Shown: positions 1,731 to 17,871 of the stretch, one piece after another
Layout of the letters: each line of letters begins with the position of its first letter
Position numbering within the stretch: the first letter of the stretch is position 1
Notes under the pieces: generated by a model
What the model was told of the DNA's origin: nothing
The model's input: only the letters and a program-made list of their open reading frames with translations
The model's database searches: none
Assembly (NCBI GenBank): GCA_937871435.1
Contig: CALMQM010000008.1
Location: 1-32,559 of the forward strand
Length of the DNA stretch: 32,559 bases
Direction of reading: 5' to 3'
From: an uncultured Bacteroidota bacterium
GTDB taxonomy: Bacteria > Bacteroidota > Bacteroidia > AKYH767-A > 2013-40CM-41-45
Made by a program: the position numbers and the translations under genes

Positions 1731-2741
1731 TTAGTTCTTATTTCCCCTTTGTTCCGCAAGAAAAACTTCACAGGTGTGCGCGAGAGATTCCGACACAGGA
1801 ATAAAACGCATGCCGGTTTCACGGATTATTTTTTCGTTTGAATAAGTCCAGTGTCGCTGAGCATTCCGGCTCGTTTCTTTGGTGATGAGTGGTTTGTTTT
1901 TGGAGAACACATGCGCAAGCGCAATACTTCTCCAGGCTACTTCACCCAAAAATGGTGACACCCGAATGGAAGGCTGTGGTTTGTGTAAATTGGAAGCGAT
2001 GGTCTCAAAAAGATATTTATAGGAAACATTTTCCGCATTCAGAATATAACGCTGCGCGTGAATGTCTTTTTCCATCAGCAACACTGCAGCTTTCGCGACA
2101 TCCCGAACATCCACAAATCCTGTTGAGCCGGGTGTATAAAATCGCAATCCTTTCCAAACCTGCTGAATCATCTTCGCGCTTCCTTTGTTCCAGTCCCCCG
2201 GACCGAGAATGATCGTTGGATTGAGCACAACAACGTTCAACCCCTCCTCTATTCCTCTCCACACTTCCCGTTCTGCTCCATATTTACTGATCGCGTAATT
2301 CGAATTAAGCGAAGACGTTTTCCAGACCGATTTCTCATCGATCTGTTGTCCTTCAGCGGTTCGGCCCAAGGCAGCGACAGAACTGATGTGACAAAACTTT
2401 TTCACTCCTTTCTCGAGCGACATGTTCACCATGTTGGCAGTGCCTTCGATATTTACCTTCATCATCCGCTTCACTTCGGAAGGCGCGAACGAAATCATGG
2501 CCGCGGCATGGTATACTTCCTCCACACCTTCCAGCGATTCAAATACGGAATAAACATCAGTCACATCCCCTTCCACCCATTCTACACTTTTCAATAATTC
2601 AGGATGTGGAGCAAACAATTTTTCAACCAGAGCGGTGCTGCTCTCTTTTCTGAGTAAAGTCCGGCATTTTTTCCCTTTTCGGGTCAATTCCAAAAGTATA
2701 TGTGAACCTACCAATCCGGTTCCGCCGGTAACGAGAATCAT
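1731..2741 (-). CDS. NAD(P)-dependent epimerase/reductase, extended SDR family
   Basis: A 336-residue cytosolic Rossmann-fold enzyme. The nucleotide-binding motif TGGTGLVG is at residues 5-12, the active-site serine region HISSVAALG near 118-126, and the catalytic pair YAISK with Tyr149 and Lys153. The NPTIILGPGD stretch fits the extended SDR group that contains dihydroflavonol-4-reductase-like and NAD-dependent epimerase/dehydratase proteins. The substrate cannot be read from the sequence; in bacteria such genes act on sugars, sterol-like or small ketone substrates. The start at 2741 puts the nucleotide-binding strand right at the N-terminus, as expected. It is transcribed divergently from tyrS, and no partner gene lies on its strand. 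Family assignment is firm; specific function is unknown. Confidence 0.88.
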   Translation of the reverse strand: MILVTGGTGLVGSHILLELTRKGKKCRTLLRKESSTALVEKLFAPHPELLKSVEWVEGDVTDVYSVFESLEGVEEVYHAAAMISFAPSEVKRMMKVNIEGTANMVNMSLEKGVKKFCHISSVAALGRTAEGQQIDEKSVWKTSSLNSNYAISKYGAEREVWRGIEEGLNVVVLNPTIILGPGDWNKGSAKMIQQVWKGLRFYTPGSTGFVDVRDVAKAAVLLMEKDIHAQRYILNAENVSYKYLFETIASNLHKPQPSIRVSPFLGEVAWRSIALAHVFSKNKPLITKETSRNAQRHWTYSNEKIIRETGMRFIPVSESLAHTCEVFLAEQRGNKN

Positions 2742-2860
2742 GCGAATAATCTTCCCGCGAAGATGAGAAATGTTTTGAAAATGAAATAGTATGAAATCAC
2801 CTTTGAAAACAAGGATAAATGCTCATTTGAATGAGCTTTTTTATCTGATTCCTGCAGATT

Positions 2861-2893
2861 TTTGTATTCATATGATTGTCCTGCCTATCTTTG
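2861..2893 (+). promoter_or_regulatory. Bacteroidota-type promoter of tyrS
   Basis: TTTG at 2861-2864 and TATCTTTG at 2886-2893 match the Bacteroidota -33 (TTTG) and -7 (TAnnTTTG) boxes, with 21 bp between them. The expected transcript start near 2900 lies just before the ATG at 2911. It also rules out the upstream in-frame ATG at 2791 as the main start. Confidence 0.6.
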
Positions 2894-2910
2894 GCCGCAA
2901 AATCAGGTTT

Positions 2911-4191
2911 ATGAAGAATTTTATTGAAGAGCTGAGATGGCGGGGTATGCTACACGATGTGATGCCGGGAACGGAAGAATTGCTGAACTCCGGGATGACA
3001 AAAGGTTACATCGGCTTCGACCCAACAGCGGATTCACTTGGTGTAGGCAATCTGGTACAGGTGATGTTGCTGCTTCATTTTCAACAATGCGGACACAAAC
3101 CTATCGCTCTTGTTGGTGGCGCAACCGGAATGGTCGGTGATCCGAGCGGGAAATCACAGGAGAGGAATTTACTCAACGAAGAAATACTTGCTCACAACCT
3201 GGCTTGTCAGAAAGCACAACTGGAAAAATTTCTGGATTTCAATTGTGGAGAACAATCCGCTGAAATAGTCAACAATTACGACTGGTTTAAAAATTTCAGT
3301 TTCCTTGAATTTATCCGTGATGTCGGAAAACACATCACCATCAATTACATGATGGCGAAAGATTCTGTACAGAAAAGACTTGACAGCGGTATGTCTTTTA
3401 CAGAATTTTCTTATCAACTTGTTCAGGGCTATGATTTCTACTATTTGTGGAAACACATGGGCATAAGTCTGCAAATGGGAGGTTCCGATCAGTGGGGAAA
3501 TATCGTGACAGGAACAGAACTGATCCGCAGAAAAGAAAGCGGAGAAGCTTTTGCTCTCACCACTCCGTTGATTAAGAAAGCGGATGGAACCAAATTCGGT
3601 AAGACCGAAGGAGGGAATGTGTGGCTCGATGCAAAACGGACATCACCGTATCAGTTCTACCAGTTCTGGCTTAATGCGGCAGATGAGGATTCTAAAAATT
3701 TCATCCGGATTTTCACTTTGAAAACGAAGGATGAAATAGAGGCTCTCGAAGCTGAACATGAAAAAGCTCCTCACCTGAGATTATTGCAGAAAGAATTGGC
3801 GAAAGACATCACCATCAGAGTGCATTCTGAAAAAGATTACAATGCAGCGATTGAAGCATCGGAAATATTGTTCGGCAAAGGTACTGCGGAAGCACTGATG
3901 AATTTATCCGAGTCTGATCTGCTCTCAGTATTTGATGGTGTGCCGCAGGTAGAATTTCCAAAGTCCGCTCTCGATGGTGGAATCAATGTGATCGATTTCC
4001 TTGTAGAAAAAACGAATATTTTTCCTTCCAGAGGTGAAGCCAGGAAAATGATTCAGGGCGGCGGAGTGTTGATCAACAAAGGAAAAGTCGAAAGTGAAAA
4101 CAGAAACCTCGATAGTGCCGATACGATCAAAGGAAAATACATTCTTGCACAAAAAGGCAAGAAGAATTATTTCCTGGTTGTTCTCAAATAG
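2911..4191 (+). CDS. tyrS: Tyrosyl-tRNA synthetase (TyrRS, class I)
   Basis: Charges tRNA-Tyr with tyrosine using ATP in the cytosol. The product is 426 residues, normal for bacterial TyrRS. The N-terminus ([18 protein letters not shown]), the tyrosine pocket region GFDPTADSL, the [14 protein letters not shown] stretch, and the KFGKT form of the KMSKS loop (residues 228-232) are all present. A C-terminal S4 RNA-binding domain follows (about residues 355-426, with [18 protein letters not shown]-like spacing). The start at 2911 is preferred over the in-frame ATG at 2791 because a promoter lies at 2861-2893 and homologs begin at this MKNF. One oddity: the HIGH signature reads GVGN (residues 44-47), so the first histidine is replaced by glycine. 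Confidence 0.96.
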
Positions 4192-5539: not shown

Positions 5540-7117
5540 TTACTTCTTTGGTAAAGTACTGGCCGGATTGTCGGTGCTGTAATGTAAGCCGACATTCTCC
5601 TTCCTGTCCATTGCAAATTTAATGATGAGATAAGCAACTGTGATGAGGTTGCGCAGCTCACAGATTTTCGGTGACAAAATGGTGCGCTCATACAAAGCTT
5701 CTGTTTCTCCGTAAATTATCCGTAAACGGTTTTGTGCCCGTTTCAAACGTTGATCGGAACGAACGATACCGACATAATTGCTCATCACATCCTGCAATTC
5801 ACGCAGGTTGTGCGTGATCAAAACCATTTCGTTTGGTTGCGTTGTTCCTTCAGCATCCCAATCAGGAACCTCCGTATTAAAATTATTTTTTTTGAAAGCC
5901 ATCAATGCATCAAGAGATGCTCTGTGTGCAAACACCAAGGCTTCGAGAAGAGAATTCGATGCCAGTCTGTTCGCGCCATGCAATCCTGTGCAGGCACATT
6001 CTCCTGCAGCATACAAATTGCCAATGCTGCTTCTCGCGAATTCATCTACCACAATTCCTCCACAAATGTAATGAGCGGCAGGAACAACAGGAATCATATC
6101 CTTCGTCACATCAATGCCTATACTTTTGCATTTCTGATTGATATTTGGAAAATGTTCCACGAACTGATCAAAAGGAATATGTCTGCAATCCAGATACACA
6201 TATTCATCACCGCGTACTTTCATTTCATTGTCAATGGCACGGGCAACAATATCTCTCGGAGCAAGTGATTTTCGTGAATCGTATTTGTGCATGAACTCAT
6301 CGCCGTCCTGTGTTTTCAGGATGCCACCAAAACCGCGAACTGCTTCTGTGATCAAAAAAGAAGGATGCTCACCCGGATTAAAGAGTGCTGTCGGATGAAA
6401 CTGAATAAATTCCATGTCCTTCACCTGGCCTTTTGCACGGTAAACCATAGCAATACCATCACCTGTGGCAATCACCGGATTGGTGGTGGCTTTGTATACC
6501 TGTCCTGATCCACCTGTGGCGACAAGTGTCACTTTGCTGAGGATAGTTTCTATTTCCCGTGTTTGCAGGTTCAAAGCGTAAGCTCCGTAACATTCGATGT
6601 CCGGAGTGCTTCGCATCACTTCTTTTCCGAGATGATGTTGAGTGATGATATCGACAGCGAAATAGTGAGTATAAATTGAAATGTTGGGATGACTGTGTAC
6701 ACGGGCGAGTAAAGCCCTTTCAATCTCGTTTCCTGTTGCATCTTTGAAATGAAGCACACGATGTTCACTGTGTCCGCCTTCTTTGGCAAGATCAAATTCA
6801 CCCTGTTCATTTCTATCGAAGCGTGTTCCCCATTCAATAATTTCGCGGATCCTGTCGGCACCTTCAGTCACCACCATTCGTACAATTTTTTCGTTGCACA
6901 AACCTGCTCCGCATTCCAATGTATCCTGCACGTGTTTTTCGAATGTATCAGGACCATGCATCACACCGGCTATTCCACCCTGCGCATATTTTGTGTTGGA
7001 TTCTTCCGCGTTTGCTTTTGTAATAATGATGACCTTGCCTTGGTCTGCAACTTTTAAGGCAAACGTAAGACCGGCAATCCCGCTTCCAATAATTAAGAAA
7101 TCTGTCTGTTTTTGCAT
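5540..7117 (-). CDS. nadB: L-aspartate oxidase
   Basis: FAD enzyme that oxidises L-aspartate to iminoaspartate, the first step of de novo NAD synthesis; NadA then makes quinolinate. The 525-residue length matches the family (E. coli about 540). The FAD-binding GSGIAGL motif is at residues 11-17, followed by TKYAQGGIAGV, the GGHSEHRVLH active-site stretch, EAVRGFGG, PRDIVARAI, and the C-terminal flavin motif AAGECACTGLHGANRLASNS. The succinate dehydrogenase/fumarate reductase relatives lack this arrangement, so NadB is firm. The ATG at 7117 is 9 residues before the FAD motif. nadA and nadC are not in this window. The LuxE-like gene follows after 11 bp. A G-rich tandem repeat lies 45-105 bp upstream of the start. 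Confidence 0.96.
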   Translation of the reverse strand: MQKQTDFLIIGSGIAGLTFALKVADQGKVIIITKANAEESNTKYAQGGIAGVMHGPDTFEKHVQDTLECGAGLCNEKIVRMVVTEGADRIREIIEWGTRFDRNEQGEFDLAKEGGHSEHRVLHFKDATGNEIERALLARVHSHPNISIYTHYFAVDIITQHHLGKEVMRSTPDIECYGAYALNLQTREIETILSKVTLVATGGSGQVYKATTNPVIATGDGIAMVYRAKGQVKDMEFIQFHPTALFNPGEHPSFLITEAVRGFGGILKTQDGDEFMHKYDSRKSLAPRDIVARAIDNEMKVRGDEYVYLDCRHIPFDQFVEHFPNINQKCKSIGIDVTKDMIPVVPAAHYICGGIVVDEFARSSIGNLYAAGECACTGLHGANRLASNSLLEALVFAHRASLDALMAFKKNNFNTEVPDWDAEGTTQPNEMVLITHNLRELQDVMSNYVGIVRSDQRLKRAQNRLRIIYGETEALYERTILSPKICELRNLITVAYLIIKFAMDRKENVGLHYSTDNPASTLPKK

Positions 7118-7161
7118 ATGCTCAATTCAGGGTTAAAAGTAATGAAAATAGGATTGAAGGA

Positions 7162-7222
7162 GGGACGAGGGACGGGGGACGAGGGACGGGGGACGAGGGA
7201 CGGGGGACGAGGGTCGAGGGAC
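7162..7222 (+). repeat. G-rich tandem repeat, 14-bp unit built of two heptads
   Basis: Three identical copies of GGGACGAGGGACGG (7162-7175, 7176-7189, 7190-7203), one copy with two changes (7204-7217) and a partial GGGAC. The unit is itself two heptads, GGGACGA + GGGACGG. Repeated G-runs of 3-5 bases with short ACGA or AC spacers satisfy the simple G-quadruplex pattern on the + strand. It sits in the divergent interval between nadB (minus) and nfu (plus). It is not a CRISPR: there are no spacers. Confidence 0.95.
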
Positions 7223-7350
7223 AAAAGTTGTTTAATCTTGAAATCTCCATTACCTAAAAGGTCTGAATTTGCCTGATGCTTTTTAACCTAAATTACCGTC
7301 TGCCAACTAAATCCATTGTTCATAGAGGCCCTCTCTTCAAAAACTAATTG

Positions 7351-7358
7351 TACCTTTA
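7351..7358 (+). promoter_or_regulatory. -7-like box of nfu
   Basis: TACCTTTA differs by one base from the Bacteroidota TAnnTTTG box and ends 8 bp before the ATG at 7367. No matching TTTG is found at the usual distance upstream, so this is a partial promoter match. Confidence 0.35.
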
Positions 7359-7366
7359 CATCCAGA

Positions 7367-7951
7367 ATGGAAATCAAAAAAGTCACTACTGTTTATGCGG
7401 AATCCACGCCGAATCCCGCCGCGTTAAAATTTGTCGCGAACAGATATTTATTGCAGGAAGGTAGTGTGGAATATACTTCAAAAAGTCAGGCAGTGAATTG
7501 TCCGCTTGCACAACAATTGTTTGATTTTTCTGGCATCTGCGGAGTTTTCATTACTACCAATTTTATCACCCTCACAAAGAACTCCGATGTCGACTGGCAG
7601 GAGACCATGGGTATATTGAGGGAGTTTATCAAGTCATACCTGGAAAATGGTCAACCGGTTTTTACCGGACCAACAGGACAGGTCGCTGACAGCAGAATTG
7701 AAAGAACGAAAACCGCTTCAGCCATTGAAACTAAAATCATAGAAACACTGGAAGAATATGTGAAACCGGCTGTTGAACAAGATGGCGGAGCGATACATTT
7801 CAAATCTTTTGATTCCGGAATTGTCACACTTGTACTAAAAGGCTCGTGTAGCGGATGTCCTTCGTCCACACAAACACTCAAAGGAGGAATAGAAAACCTG
7901 TTGAAACAATTTATTCCTGAAGTAAAGGAAGTAGTAGCCGAAGAAGGTTGA
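7367..7951 (+). CDS. nfu: Nfu-type iron-sulfur cluster carrier protein
   Basis: Cytosolic protein that carries [4Fe-4S] clusters to target enzymes. Residues 8-90 form an Nfu_N domain (TPNPAALKF signature, as in eukaryotic NFU1), and residues ~120-194 the Nfu/NifU C-terminal domain (VKPAVEQDGGAIHF) with the cluster-binding CxxC at Cys161 and Cys164 (SCSGCPSS). Length is 194 residues from the ATG at 7367. An in-frame TTG at 7316 would add 17 residues upstream of the Nfu_N domain and ahead of the -7-like box, so it is rejected. NFU1-type proteins are known to serve lipoyl synthase, and the nearby sucB product needs lipoylation; a functional tie is my inference. It is divergent from nadB and convergent with thpR. 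Confidence 0.93.
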   Translation: MEIKKVTTVYAESTPNPAALKFVANRYLLQEGSVEYTSKSQAVNCPLAQQLFDFSGICGVFITTNFITLTKNSDVDWQETMGILREFIKSYLENGQPVFTGPTGQVADSRIERTKTASAIETKIIETLEEYVKPAVEQDGGAIHFKSFDSGIVTLVLKGSCSGCPSSTQTLKGGIENLLKQFIPEVKEVVAEEG

Positions 7952-12940: not shown

Positions 12941-13642
12941 TCAAAGTTCTTCTTGTGGACCGATTTTCACCACAGCCATTTCCCGAATGGATTTACCCTT
13001 TGAAAATTTTGCGCGATAAGAACGCATCCAGAATAACATTGCCGGAACTCCGATCAATGTTGGCCAGAGCCATTGAATACTCACCGGGAGCCATTCAAAA
13101 TTCAGGTTGACTGCGGAAAAGGCCGACACCGCCGCGATATAAGCTCCGATCATTCCTCCAATGTGACTGAAAAACCATTTTCCTTTAACATTGCGCGGAC
13201 GAATAAAAGACACCAGATCTCTGCTGCTATTGATCAATCCTATGCTTCCGAAAACGATAGAAATTGTTCCGAACGCATCAGGCAATTTTTGAATGCCGAT
13301 GATTATCAAAACAAGACAAAATACTCCGTTTAAACACACCACAAACCAATCGATAAATTTCACTTCGCGCCAGCTCTTCAGATTTTTCCGGTACAAGGCA
13401 CGGTACCCGGAGAAAGCCAGGTAAAAGGAGAAAACTGCAACAAGAGTCAAAAACAAGTTGTTGTGCATCGGCGCCATTATCAATGCAGCGAAGCTCACAC
13501 CGCACATCGCCCAAAAAAACACTTTTCCCCAACGACGATGAGCGTCTCCGCCTTTTTTAACTGCCATCGCTATCGGTGCAACAATAAATGCCGTGAATCC
13601 GCAGACGATGTGAATGATCAGAAAGAAGTTAAACAGAGTCAT
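12941..13642 (-). CDS. Multi-pass membrane protein, DUF2306-like
   Basis: A 233-residue integral membrane protein with about seven hydrophobic helices from residue 4 to 208. The first helix carries a histidine (LIIHIVCGFTAFIVAPIAM) and is followed by GGDAHRRWGKVFFW; this His-rich N-terminal pattern resembles DUF2306 membrane proteins. The function of that family is not known, and I do not assign one. The basic cytosolic tail starts near residue 208. It is preceded by a well-formed promoter (13744-13772) with a 100-nt leader, so it is probably transcribed on its own rather than only by read-through from the LytTR gene upstream. Confidence 0.72.
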   Translation of the reverse strand: MTLFNFFLIIHIVCGFTAFIVAPIAMAVKKGGDAHRRWGKVFFWAMCGVSFAALIMAPMHNNLFLTLVAVFSFYLAFSGYRALYRKNLKSWREVKFIDWFVVCLNGVFCLVLIIIGIQKLPDAFGTISIVFGSIGLINSSRDLVSFIRPRNVKGKWFFSHIGGMIGAYIAAVSAFSAVNLNFEWLPVSIQWLWPTLIGVPAMLFWMRSYRAKFSKGKSIREMAVVKIGPQEEL

Positions 13643-13743
13643 GATCTATAAGTTTTTGAAGGCTTTGATAAATCCTCCTGAAGAAATGTACTGTTGACAT
13701 TCGAAGGAATCTCTATTCAAGAACGCTTTGTTGTTTTATGAAG

Positions 13744-13772
13744 CAAATGTATATCACTAAAAATCCGTTCAA
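13744..13772 (-). promoter_or_regulatory. Promoter of the DUF2306-like gene
   Basis: On the minus strand, TTG (13770-13772) and TACATTTG (13744-13751) are separated by 18 bp, close to the Bacteroidota TTTG / TAnnTTTG promoter. The expected start of transcription is near 13738, giving a leader of about 95 nt to the ATG at 13642. Confidence 0.6.
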
Positions 13773-13776
13773 TGAA

Positions 13777-13828
13777 AATTGGGAGCAATGGCCGGAAATT
13801 GGGATAAAAGACAAGTTTTGGGACAAAT
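13777..13828 (-). promoter_or_regulatory. Three phased direct repeats, candidate activator sites
   Basis: The word (A/T)TTGGGAnnAA occurs three times with GGGA at 13781, 13801 and 13820, that is, at 20- and 19-bp spacing (two DNA turns). They start 5 bp beyond the -33 box of the promoter at 13744-13772. Relative to the predicted transcript start they centre near -44, -64 and -83. The binding protein is not known. Confidence 0.45.
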
Positions 13829-13965
13829 GGTAGGCCTACCGGGATGTTTGACATGATGATTTTAAATCGTTAAGCGGATAATTTACACAGTCAGACTGAA
13901 AAATCAACTCCATCCGGCTTTGATACATGAAAATTTATCTGCTCATCAATCCGGACACAAGTGTA

Positions 13966-14880
13966 TTAATTCTTGTTTGCAAAGAGACTGTTTAAGCGAT
14001 GATGCAATTCTTCTCCGGTCCTCCTGGCGACAGGAATACTTTCCTCGCAATTTTTCAGATGCAAACGATAACCTTGTGAATTTCCGGATACAGAAACCAC
14101 ATTGGACAAATTGACAAGAAATGAACGGTGACAACGAAACACAAAAGGATTGTGAATCTGACTTTCGGTTCGCTTCAAACTGGAACGCAACAATTGTGAT
14201 TTCACTTTGGCATTTTCCAGAAAAACAACTTTGGAATAGTTGTCAGCTGATCCAATATACAGGAGATTATTTTCAGCCAACCTCAACACTTCATCTTTTT
14301 CATTTTCCGAAACCAAAATAATTTCTCCCGGACTCAACGGTTGCTGAATGTGCTGCACTTCCGCTTCAATTTGCTTCGCTTCTGCAGTATTTAACTGCAA
14401 AAGCCGACTGTATTTAATCAGAGTTACAATACCAGCGACAACAAAAGCCACAGCGACAGTTACAAATTGAAAAAATAAAAAACTTCCCCACATCAAAGGC
14501 ATCGATGTAACGAAATGCGTATACAACAAATTCGCGATACCGATAAAGAAAAAGTTGAAAACAAAAAAGCCGATATTTTTACCAACCGTCCAGTTTTCTT
14601 CATTGAAATAATTTTTAAAAATATAGGGCAAGGGTAAAAAGAGAATCACCACCAGACTGGTCACCATTCCGTAACCCAACATGAAAAGATTAATATTTTT
14701 CACCGGAGACTGAACAATTCCAAACGGTTCAAATACCCACAGAAAAACGAAGACAATGCACCCACTCAGCAGAGCCATGCGCATGCCATGGCCTGATTTC
14801 CATTCCTTCGGATACGGTTGATTGAGAATTCGTAACAACATTTCGTTTGCAATATATTCAATCCATCTTTTCCGGTGCAT
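13966..14880 (-). CDS. Membrane-anchored LytTR-family transcription regulator
   Basis: A 304-residue protein with four predicted membrane helices (about 33-54, 65-87, 102-122, 133-156) and a C-terminal LytTR DNA-binding domain (about 186-300). Diagnostic LytTR features are ADNYSKVVF, the KRTESQI stretch, FVFRCHRSFLVN and the VPVARR-like IPVARRTGE end. There is no receiver domain with a phosphorylatable aspartate, so it is not a standard response regulator; the membrane part probably senses a signal directly. A short polar linker (~157-185, glutamine-rich) joins the halves. The ATG at 14880 is used; ATG at 14841 is possible without losing any helix. The promoter region of the next minus-strand gene carries phased repeats that may be its targets (inference). 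Confidence 0.88.
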   Translation of the reverse strand: MHRKRWIEYIANEMLLRILNQPYPKEWKSGHGMRMALLSGCIVFVFLWVFEPFGIVQSPVKNINLFMLGYGMVTSLVVILFLPLPYIFKNYFNEENWTVGKNIGFFVFNFFFIGIANLLYTHFVTSMPLMWGSFLFFQFVTVAVAFVVAGIVTLIKYSRLLQLNTAEAKQIEAEVQHIQQPLSPGEIILVSENEKDEVLRLAENNLLYIGSADNYSKVVFLENAKVKSQLLRSSLKRTESQIHNPFVFRCHRSFLVNLSNVVSVSGNSQGYRLHLKNCEESIPVARRTGEELHHRLNSLFANKN

Positions 14881-15465: not shown

Positions 15466-17871
15466 ATGAGACGTCTTTTACTTCTTCTCAGCTTTTATTG
15501 CATTGCTGCGAGTATTTCTGCTCAAGTATCAACCATTCGACCTGATTTTGCTTTTCAGGGAACTACACTTACCACTACCATCACAATGGCCAGTGGTGTG
15601 TTGACTTCAGCTTCTCCTCCGAATTCCGCAACAGATATTTACCTGGAGCAAAACGGAACACAGATCTTCACCGATGCATTTGATGTGAGCCAGATCTACA
15701 CTGATTTTTCCGGTTACACCGATTCATTGTATACCGATTTTACAATTCCTGCTCTTGCAACTCCGGGTTGGTATGACGTTCACGTGATCACTTACACGAT
15801 AGATCCTTTCCAGCCATGGATCATGATTCCATCTGACAATGTATTTACAAATGGTTTCCTGGTTCGCATACCCGGAAGCTGTTCTGTACCAACAGGTGTC
15901 AATGCTGGAAATATTACGAATGTCACAGCAGATATCTCCTGGGATATTCAAACTGCTGATACTTTCCGGATTCGCTATGCAGTAAATGGTACAACAAATT
16001 ATCTGTACAAAGACATCAACGGAAGCGGTAACCCGATCCTTGCAACTTTAACAGGATTGCTGCCCGGAACAGAATATTCTGTTGAGATGGCAACACGCTG
16101 CACAGGAATACCAAGCACCTATTCTCTGCCTATCACTTTCACTACTGATTTCACTCCGGTGAATTGCATTGTTCCGGGCCAGCTCGATGTTTCCAATATC
16201 ATCAATACCACCGCTGATTTCAGCTGGACTCCTTTCATTCTCGCGGATACATTCCGTGTTCGTTATTCAGAAGATGGAACAACAAACTACCTGTACATCG
16301 ACGCGGATGGATCCAATGGTAGTCTCGTTTCTCTCAGCAACCTGAATCCGGGAATGACTTATCAGATTCAGGTAAGTTCCATTTGCTCCGGAACAAGCAG
16401 CGGTTACAGCGTACCTTTCATCTTCACTACAGATGTAACTCCTGTTCCTTGTATTCGTCCATACGGTCTTACCAATCCCGCGCTGACCAATACTACCGCG
16501 CAGATCGACTGGACGCCATATGTCACTGCCGATACATTCAGGATTCGTTACACCGAATTGGGAAGCGGAAGCTTCCGTTATGTGGATCGTAATGGAGCAC
16601 TCGGAAATTCCTACACAATCACCGGACTGAATCCCGCGACGACTTACAGCGTACAGGTGGGTGCAATTTGCAATGGATCCAGAGTCGGATATAGTCCGGC
16701 CATTCAATTCACCACTGACCCAACTCCGGTAAATTGCAACAAACCATTTGGTTTATCACAATCGAATACAACCAATACAACAGTTACTGTGAGTTGGTCG
16801 CCATACGTTGTCGCCGACACATTCCGAATCCGCTACCATGAATTCAATTCTCTGTTATTCCAGTACAAGGATATTGACGGAGCCGGCGGAACTGCGACAA
16901 GTGGAAACCTCAGCGGATTAAATCCAAACACACTTTACTACTACCAGGTTGCTTCCATTTGTAACGGAGTAAGTTCAGGCTACAGTTCTGTATCCAGTTT
17001 CACTACGCTCAGCATCGCGATCTCATGCTTCCGTCCCTATGGTTTATCGGAAAGTAACATCACCAACAGCTCAGCGCTCGTTAGCTGGGATAATTTTGTG
17101 ACTGCGGATACATTCCGCATTCGATATGCAGTGAACGGAACAACCAATTATCAATACATCGATCAGCCAGGATCTTCCGGAAATTCCGTAATCATCAGCG
17201 GACTGTTGCCTTCAACAACTTATCAGTATCGTATAAGCTCTATTTGTACCGGAGCCAGCAGCGGGTATAGCTTCCCATCTACATTCACTACATCGAGTGG
17301 CGCGGTTGCCTGCGGTATTCCGTATGGTTTGTCGAACACACCGTTGAACAATACAAGCGCAACCGTAAGCTGGACACCGTTGGTGACAGCTGACAGCTTC
17401 CTGGTTCGTTACTCAATTTTTGGAACGACCAATTACATGTGGAAAAAAATTCTCGGAACTCCCGGCGTAACAAGTACAACACTTACCGGACTCACTCCAA
17501 ATACAGTTTACCAATGGCAAATTCGTCCGATCTGCAATGGGGTTCCTGCCGGACCGTATTCCGTATCCGATATGATCACAATTCCTCCTTCACCGGTTCG
17601 TATGTCTGCTTCTATCAACAGTAACGAATTCCTTGTGTATCCTAATCCTGCCACGCAGTTAATCAACATTCGATTCGCTGCAGAGCAATCGGTAACAACA
17701 CGGGTTCAGTTGGTAGATCTTACAGGTCGTATCGTTCGCAATCAGGAATTCACGGCAGTGGCCGGAGAAAATCTGCTCACTATCGACATGAATGATCTCG
17801 CAAGAGGAATTTACACACTGATTGTTGACTCAGGAAATATTCAACAACAGTCAAGGATTACTCTGGAATAA
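15466..17871 (+). CDS. Secreted fibronectin type III repeat protein with T9SS sorting domain
   Basis: An 801-residue surface or secreted protein. A signal peptide covers residues 1-19 (MRRLLLLLSFYCIAASISA). Residues ~20-135 form an N-terminal beta-rich domain. Six fibronectin III repeats start with a cysteine at residues 139, 234, 329, 424, 521 and 616, each with an initial 'C-x-x-P-x-G-L' strand, a central 'TADTFRIRYA' strand and an 'L-x-P-x-T-x-Y' turn. The C-terminal ~80 residues (EFLVYPNPATQ ... ARGIYTLIVDSG) are a T9SS type A sorting domain. A role in adhesion or as a binding scaffold is likely for such repeats, but no ligand can be read. It ends 19 bp before a strong bidirectional terminator. 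Confidence 0.92.
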   Translation: MRRLLLLLSFYCIAASISAQVSTIRPDFAFQGTTLTTTITMASGVLTSASPPNSATDIYLEQNGTQIFTDAFDVSQIYTDFSGYTDSLYTDFTIPALATPGWYDVHVITYTIDPFQPWIMIPSDNVFTNGFLVRIPGSCSVPTGVNAGNITNVTADISWDIQTADTFRIRYAVNGTTNYLYKDINGSGNPILATLTGLLPGTEYSVEMATRCTGIPSTYSLPITFTTDFTPVNCIVPGQLDVSNIINTTADFSWTPFILADTFRVRYSEDGTTNYLYIDADGSNGSLVSLSNLNPGMTYQIQVSSICSGTSSGYSVPFIFTTDVTPVPCIRPYGLTNPALTNTTAQIDWTPYVTADTFRIRYTELGSGSFRYVDRNGALGNSYTITGLNPATTYSVQVGAICNGSRVGYSPAIQFTTDPTPVNCNKPFGLSQSNTTNTTVTVSWSPYVVADTFRIRYHEFNSLLFQYKDIDGAGGTATSGNLSGLNPNTLYYYQVASICNGVSSGYSSVSSFTTLSIAISCFRPYGLSESNITNSSALVSWDNFVTADTFRIRYAVNGTTNYQYIDQPGSSGNSVIISGLLPSTTYQYRISSICTGASSGYSFPSTFTTSSGAVACGIPYGLSNTPLNNTSATVSWTPLVTADSFLVRYSIFGTTNYMWKKILGTPGVTSTTLTGLTPNTVYQWQIRPICNGVPAGPYSVSDMITIPPSPVRMSASINSNEFLVYPNPATQLINIRFAAEQSVTTRVQLVDLTGRIVRNQEFTAVAGENLLTIDMNDLARGIYTLIVDSGNIQQQSRITLE
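15880..17595 (+). repeat. Six coding repeats, 285-291 bp each
   Basis: Units begin at 15880, 16165, 16450, 16735, 17026 and 17311. The first three steps are exactly 285 bp, the next 291 and then 285. Nucleotide identity between units is moderate (many silent changes), so the duplications are old and kept at the protein level. Confidence 0.85.

Follow-up and report, generated by a model that had tools for sequence, protein, structure and literature searches.

The intergenic stretch between a gene for a predicted membrane-anchored LytTR regulator and a gene of the DUF2306 family contains a row of evenly spaced GGGA words, and the question is whether this row is an operator and which protein it serves. 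The window analyzed here, i.e. the whole stretch of DNA, comprises 32,559 nucleotides of a contig from an uncultured Bacteroidota bacterium. A first-pass annotation had described three repeats ahead of the DUF2306 promoter. Our analysis suggests that positions 13778-13854 are probably a four-copy operator of the DUF2306 gene that would be bound by the neighboring membrane LytTR protein, most likely with activation of DUF2306 as the outcome.

On the plus strand GGGA is found at 13781, 13801, 13820 and 13841, with spacings of 20, 19 and 21 bp (Table 1). Read on the minus strand, the lytTR–DUF2306 intergenic region runs ...CATCCCGG...TTGTCCCAAA...TTATCCCAAT...GCTCCCAAT...TTG-N18-TACATTTG. The first three positions and the two spacings between them had been given exactly in the first-pass annotation and all three repeats are present, but the fourth copy had been overlooked. 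The spacings fit the pattern of LytTR operators, in which direct repeats of ~9 bp are separated by 10-13 bp and recur with a period of ~19-22 bp. A profile of 17 bp (TTGCCATTCRTCCCAAA in the orientation of the gene, consensus TTGCCATTCGTCCCAAA, 11.7 bits) that had been trained without the window selects exactly these four copies, and after them the next-best score in the window drops to 0.01. Within the 323-bp intergenic region the top three scores add up to 38.4, compared with a mean of 8.4 (SD 5.2) after shuffling, and this sum was matched by 0 of 2000 dinucleotide shuffles; the same was found for the family relative G008. Triples of GGGA spaced 18-22 bp also arise from a GAGGGAC tandem repeat at 7160-7222 (triple at 7162-7218). 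A bare GGGA triple can thus be found elsewhere in the window too; what carries the case is the longer motif together with its conservation.

Table 1. Features of the lytTR–DUF2306 locus, in window coordinates.
Feature	Position	Strand	Remarks
DUF2306 membrane protein, 233 aa, presumed target	12941..13642	(-)	Pfam PF10067, 34.3 bits vs cut-off 31.6
Putative -7 element TACATTTG, Bacteroidetes TAnnTTTG type	13744-13751	(-)	CAAATGTA on plus
Putative -33 element, TTG	13770-13772	(-)	CAA on plus; 18 bp upstream of TACATTTG
Repeat 1, promoter-proximal, CGGCCATTGCTCCCAAT	13778..13794	(-)	profile score 9.4; CCC ends 8 bp before TTG, 29 bp before TACATTTG
Repeat 2, TTGTCTTTTATCCCAAT	13798..13814	(-)	profile score 15.5
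Repeat 3, CTACCATTTGTCCCAAA	13817..13833	(-)	profile score 13.5
Repeat 4, distal, ATGTCAAACATCCCGGT	13838..13854	(-)	profile score 8.0, 4th best in intergenic; GGGA at 13841
Membrane LytTR regulator, 304-aa ORF	13966..14880	(-)	Pfam PF04397, 54.3 bits vs cut-off 22.6

TAnnTTTG is the -7 element of Bacteroidetes. A promoter of the form TTG-N18 had been proposed ahead of the DUF2306 gene, and both elements are indeed found on the minus strand at that spacing. A scan for sigma-70-type promoters did not detect the DUF2306 promoter, which is expected because this promoter is of the Bacteroidetes type. The distance between array and promoter recurs in relatives. The -7-like NNNNTTTG starts 29-30 bp past the last copy's CCC in 42 of 60 loci (29 bp in the window), and the first TTG past this CCC lies at an offset of 6-8 bp in 26 of the 60 (8 bp in the window). 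The leader from CCC to the start codon measures 138 bp in the window versus a median of 59.5 bp. Transcription is predicted to begin near 13738. A constant layout of repeats, -33 and -7 elements would be expected of an activator site. Table 3 of PMC6193735 lists Bacteroides promoters of the TATCTTTG type.

The model of the LytTR protein (pLDDT 92.5) shows about four membrane helices, a long linker helix and a LytTR domain at residues 199-296, and it matches the LytTR structures of AgrA (DNA-bound, 3bs1) and ComE with E values of 1e-5 to 7e-4. A Pfam scan of the protein revealed no receiver domain and, at E<=1, no match to the MHYT domain (PF03707). With a DNA-binding domain, predicted membrane helices and no receiver, the protein fits a one-component transmembrane regulator. 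In alignments the open reading frame begins 13 residues ahead of the conserved part, which starts near residue 14, and the true start may be the ATG near 14841. For the DUF2306 protein, seven long helices are predicted (pLDDT 91.6). Five residues, H11, H35, H160, W191 and P194, do not vary among 38 sequences and would be compatible with a metal or haem site. A fold search with the DUF2306 model gave no match at E<=0.001 and helical-bundle matches only, and a sequence search of solved structures found none, so that neither a known fold nor a function was assigned on this basis. The fungal DUF2306 protein PraC is required for an epoxidation, reported as the sole function assigned to a DUF2306 protein so far (PMC12895699).

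The sample of relatives was assembled from three sources. A search of 61 genomes, the own genome and relatives, gave a full-length membrane-LytTR match in 20, and in 11 of these 20, the own genome included, DUF2306 lies directly behind the membrane lytTR gene on the same strand. A scan of GTDB species genomes yielded 306 LytTR relatives, of which the 80 best were taken; these 80 include Chitinophaga, Siphonobacter, Adhaeribacter, Emticicia, Spirosoma, Runella and Flavobacteriales, along with records titled Ignavibacteria, Kapaibacterium and Zixibacteriota. Together with 22 loci from a class search, 122 loci were examined (80 + 20 + 22). A DUF2306 gene starts no more than 450 bp downstream of lytTR in 71 of the 122, and removal of 10 duplicates left 61 non-redundant pairs, which were chosen by adjacency and not by repeats; two of them, S_L004 and S_L005, are near-copies. 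The 17-bp profile was trained on 58 intergenic regions, with the window and G008 left out.

At least two copies of the motif are present in 60 of the 61 pairs and at least three in 55. Neighboring copies are spaced 18-23 bp apart in 121 of 143 cases, the remainder 29-49 bp. Controls from LytTR-coding, DUF2306-coding and reverse-strand sequence of the 61 pairs contained 0-1 copies, and shuffled sequences 0-2, with two occurring once; in the reverse complement of the intergenic regions, a single copy was found in 1 of 61. Because 58 of the 61 pairs trained the profile, the five-fold cross-validated count is the cleaner one: a tandem array was found in 60 of 60 intergenic regions of at least 60 bp, the 40-bp region of locus L174 having been dropped. 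The comparison with relatives that had been suggested for this promoter therewith found array, spacing and promoter distance conserved before DUF2306 across Bacteroidota and in some neighboring phyla, and the order lytTR–DUF2306 is kept across the phylum. In G008 (locus L002, gene-oriented 2494-3843) these two genes are followed by what we take to be a sucA-like gene, as in the window.

The array is also linked to the presence of the membrane LytTR protein. Among 20 DUF2306 genes that do not stand directly behind a membrane lytTR gene but belong to LytTR-bearing genomes, a set that includes paralogues of paired DUF2306 genes and five genes located no more than a few kb from lytTR, the array precedes six (G013, G380, G024, G045, G290 and G167) and is lacking at 14. 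In genomes in which no membrane LytTR was found, it precedes 0 of 40 DUF2306 genes; six candidates were scored per genome, so a few of these genomes may be misses, and the 40 were taken from roughly 48 counted by eye, with weaker matches left out. The contrast gives a Fisher p of 0.0008 with kinship ignored. In G024 the intergenic region behind lytTR holds neither DUF2306 nor array, while a DUF2306 gene on another contig has the array; a second LytTR protein shares that contig. Close DUF2306 relatives agree with this picture, as G008 and G013 have both LytTR and array and G007 has neither. A quick DUF2306 tree of 111 of 118 rows, seven having failed the DUF2306 check, gave about four independent pairs in the right direction, none in the opposite and two without difference (p 0.125), too few for significance. 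Motif divergence correlates with divergence of the DNA-binding domain, the membrane domain and DUF2306 to a similar degree (r 0.36, 0.34 and 0.35).

A regular-expression search of the own genome was discarded as unspecific, with 57 matches, and an array model (R1) of 61 positions, for which 30 loci from other genomes were taken, was used instead. In the 4.36-Mb genome of the window its best match is the window array itself (E 2.4e-4). Because the runner-up reaches only E 0.49, the circuit appears to have a single target in this genome. Across the 61 genomes, scanned with stricter filters, the model gave seven matches at E<0.01, each of them at the DUF2306 promoter of a LytTR-bearing genome, and no match at this threshold in the 41 genomes lacking a full-length membrane LytTR. 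Two of 16 weaker matches lie at DUF2306 promoters of LytTR genomes, and 5 of the 11 paired genomes were missed.

Related arrangements have been described before, and the locus was compared with them. In the LytTR Regulatory Systems (LRS) of Streptococcus mutans (HdrRM and BrsRM; PMC6193735) a LytTR gene likewise stands beside a membrane-protein gene, and direct repeats about two turns apart lie just upstream of the promoter. However, the LRS regulator is soluble and its membrane inhibitor is encoded downstream, whereas the regulator in the window is predicted to be itself membrane-anchored by about four helices. The window-type array has 3-4 copies and lies between regulator and membrane-protein gene, while LRS repeats precede the promoter of the regulator operon. 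Upstream of lytTR, two or more copies were found in 0 of 61 loci, and thus positive autoregulation of lytTR is not indicated. DUF2306 is not known as an LRS inhibitor. We considered the locus as an LRS and rejected it, on the missing autoregulatory repeats and the predicted membrane helices of the regulator.

Closer in phylogeny are LRS-like operons of Bacteroides thetaiotaomicron and B. ovatus (PMC6193735, Table 3), in which a LytTR protein with several transmembrane segments is combined with repeats of 22-bp period located 11 bp before a -33/TATCTTTG promoter. There, however, the membrane partner is NfeD/DUF2154, encoded ahead of the regulator, and there are two 11-bp repeats with a different sequence, TCCGGTATTCA. 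CoxC, an MHYT-LytTR protein, and RcoM1 (PMC11347149) need no partner kinase either, CoxC is membrane-bound, and their operators are triple direct repeats with intervals of 12-13 bp. They differ in the repeat, TTCNNGCA, and CoxC in its MHYT sensor domain, which was not found in the window LytTR protein. The E. coli YpdB operator at yhjX (PMC4847170) also consists of LytTR direct repeats about two turns apart before a single target gene, but YpdB is a soluble two-component response regulator and its two repeats read GGCATTTCAT. For the lytTR–DUF2306 pair, no published description was found in the open-access literature searched.

Taken from sequence and models, the following mechanism seems likely. 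Each copy, with the core ATTCRTCCC on the gene's strand, would be one LytTR half-site, and the two-turn spacing would bring all copies onto the same side of the helix, directly ahead of the -33/-7 promoter. On perceiving a membrane or envelope signal through its four-helix membrane domain, the neighboring membrane-anchored LytTR protein would bind these half-sites, probably in the form of a side-by-side oligomer, and the bound protein would most likely activate DUF2306 transcription. In the S. mutans LRS, repeats directly upstream of the -35 element are activator sites (PMC6193735). The main rival is that the array is a repressor site of the same LytTR protein, from which a signal frees it so that DUF2306 is de-repressed. 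This is how CoxC acts at PcoxB: a membrane LytTR protein that binds three direct repeats and represses. The CoxC repeats, however, overlap the -35 box (PMC11347149), whereas in the window the nearest copy ends upstream of -33 and the other copies lie still farther from the promoter, as at the activated LRS promoters (PMC6193735). We regard repression as unlikely.

It is also conceivable, but improbable, that the operator is real and that its main ligand is another regulator, either a different LytTR protein or a member of another family, with the neighboring gene there by coincidence. Because the window genome encodes 15 LytTR domains, another of these could bind the array; a DUF2306 gene away from lytTR can retain the array, and the co-variation of motif and domain is weak. 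Against this stand the kept gene order across the phylum and the absence of the array before all 40 DUF2306 genes without membrane LytTR, even though other LytTR domains occur in the majority of the genomes of the class (346 of 395 with a match). The repeats follow lytTR and could partly be read through, and so they might act in RNA or be residues of decayed sequence. However, they lie on one strand only, at a fixed distance upstream of -33, with the two-turn period that marks DNA binding, and in G024 they went with DUF2306 and not with lytTR, which makes this explanation very improbable. An accidental spacing of GGGA words by about 20 bp could appeal to the triple in the simple tandem repeat at 7162-7218, but it is refuted by conservation, and also by the profile, the cross-validation, the promoter distance and the genome-wide model, and we give it practically no weight. 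Activation by the neighboring LytTR protein hence remains our preferred reading. The proposal of the first-pass annotation that the LytTR protein controls DUF2306 through these sites keeps its ground in that the array is conserved and elsewhere seen only with a membrane LytTR; the binding itself we infer. Its picture of a two-gene membrane sensing unit went too far, as the evidence assigns the part of regulator to LytTR and that of regulated output to DUF2306.

DUF2306 is the commonest target of the array in the set examined. Some membrane lytTR genes without a DUF2306 neighbor still have an array downstream, followed by genes for a secreted protein of ~430 aa, a TonB-dependent receptor, a choloylglycine-hydrolase-like protein or a flavin amine oxidoreductase. 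Since the array also precedes such genes, DUF2306 is not the sole target of the LytTR family, and the operator belongs to the regulator family. The secreted ~430-aa protein recurs behind membrane lytTR at L098 (4997-7116), L114, L115, L125, L082, L088 and L091; the four of these seven that were scanned gave no Pfam match above cut-off. The gene of this protein is preceded by at least two repeat copies, and at L098 DUF2306 comes after it. At L106 (5006-6244) the same array is followed by an ICMT/PEMT-type methyltransferase gene and then by DUF2306, which hints that DUF2306 may have a lipid- or prenyl-related role.

A more far-reaching and tentative idea, which we hold to be possible but doubtful, is that a row of four-helix LytTR proteins on 3-4 half-sites of one DNA face stays membrane-bound and pins a single promoter, that of the seven-helix, histidine-bearing DUF2306 protein, to the membrane. 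Such a circuit would be phylum-wide, mostly single-target and tuned to the state of the membrane, its operator would have moved to other envelope genes in some lineages, and DUF2306 would perhaps be a membrane redox or lipid-modifying enzyme. With the preferred reading, DUF2306, an uncharacterised family of bacterial membrane proteins, gains a predicted dedicated and conserved regulator and an exact candidate operator. The membrane-anchored LytTR family gains a candidate DNA target in the cultivable Chitinophaga, Siphonobacter, Adhaeribacter and Emticicia, and the signal, the membrane binding mode and the function of the target become testable with a reporter of ~150 bp.

Two further features of the window were observed. 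The GAGGGAC repeat at 7160-7222 consists of nine copies of a 7-bp unit and lies between the divergent genes 5540-7117, presumably nadB-like, and 7316-7951, presumably NifU-like; similar GTCCC-rich runs are found on the genome contigs C21, C54 and C122. Finally, the open reading frame at 15466-17871 encodes an 801-aa protein, which we take to be secreted; several of its repeats resemble fibronectin type III, and its C-terminal tail resembles a type IX secretion sorting domain.
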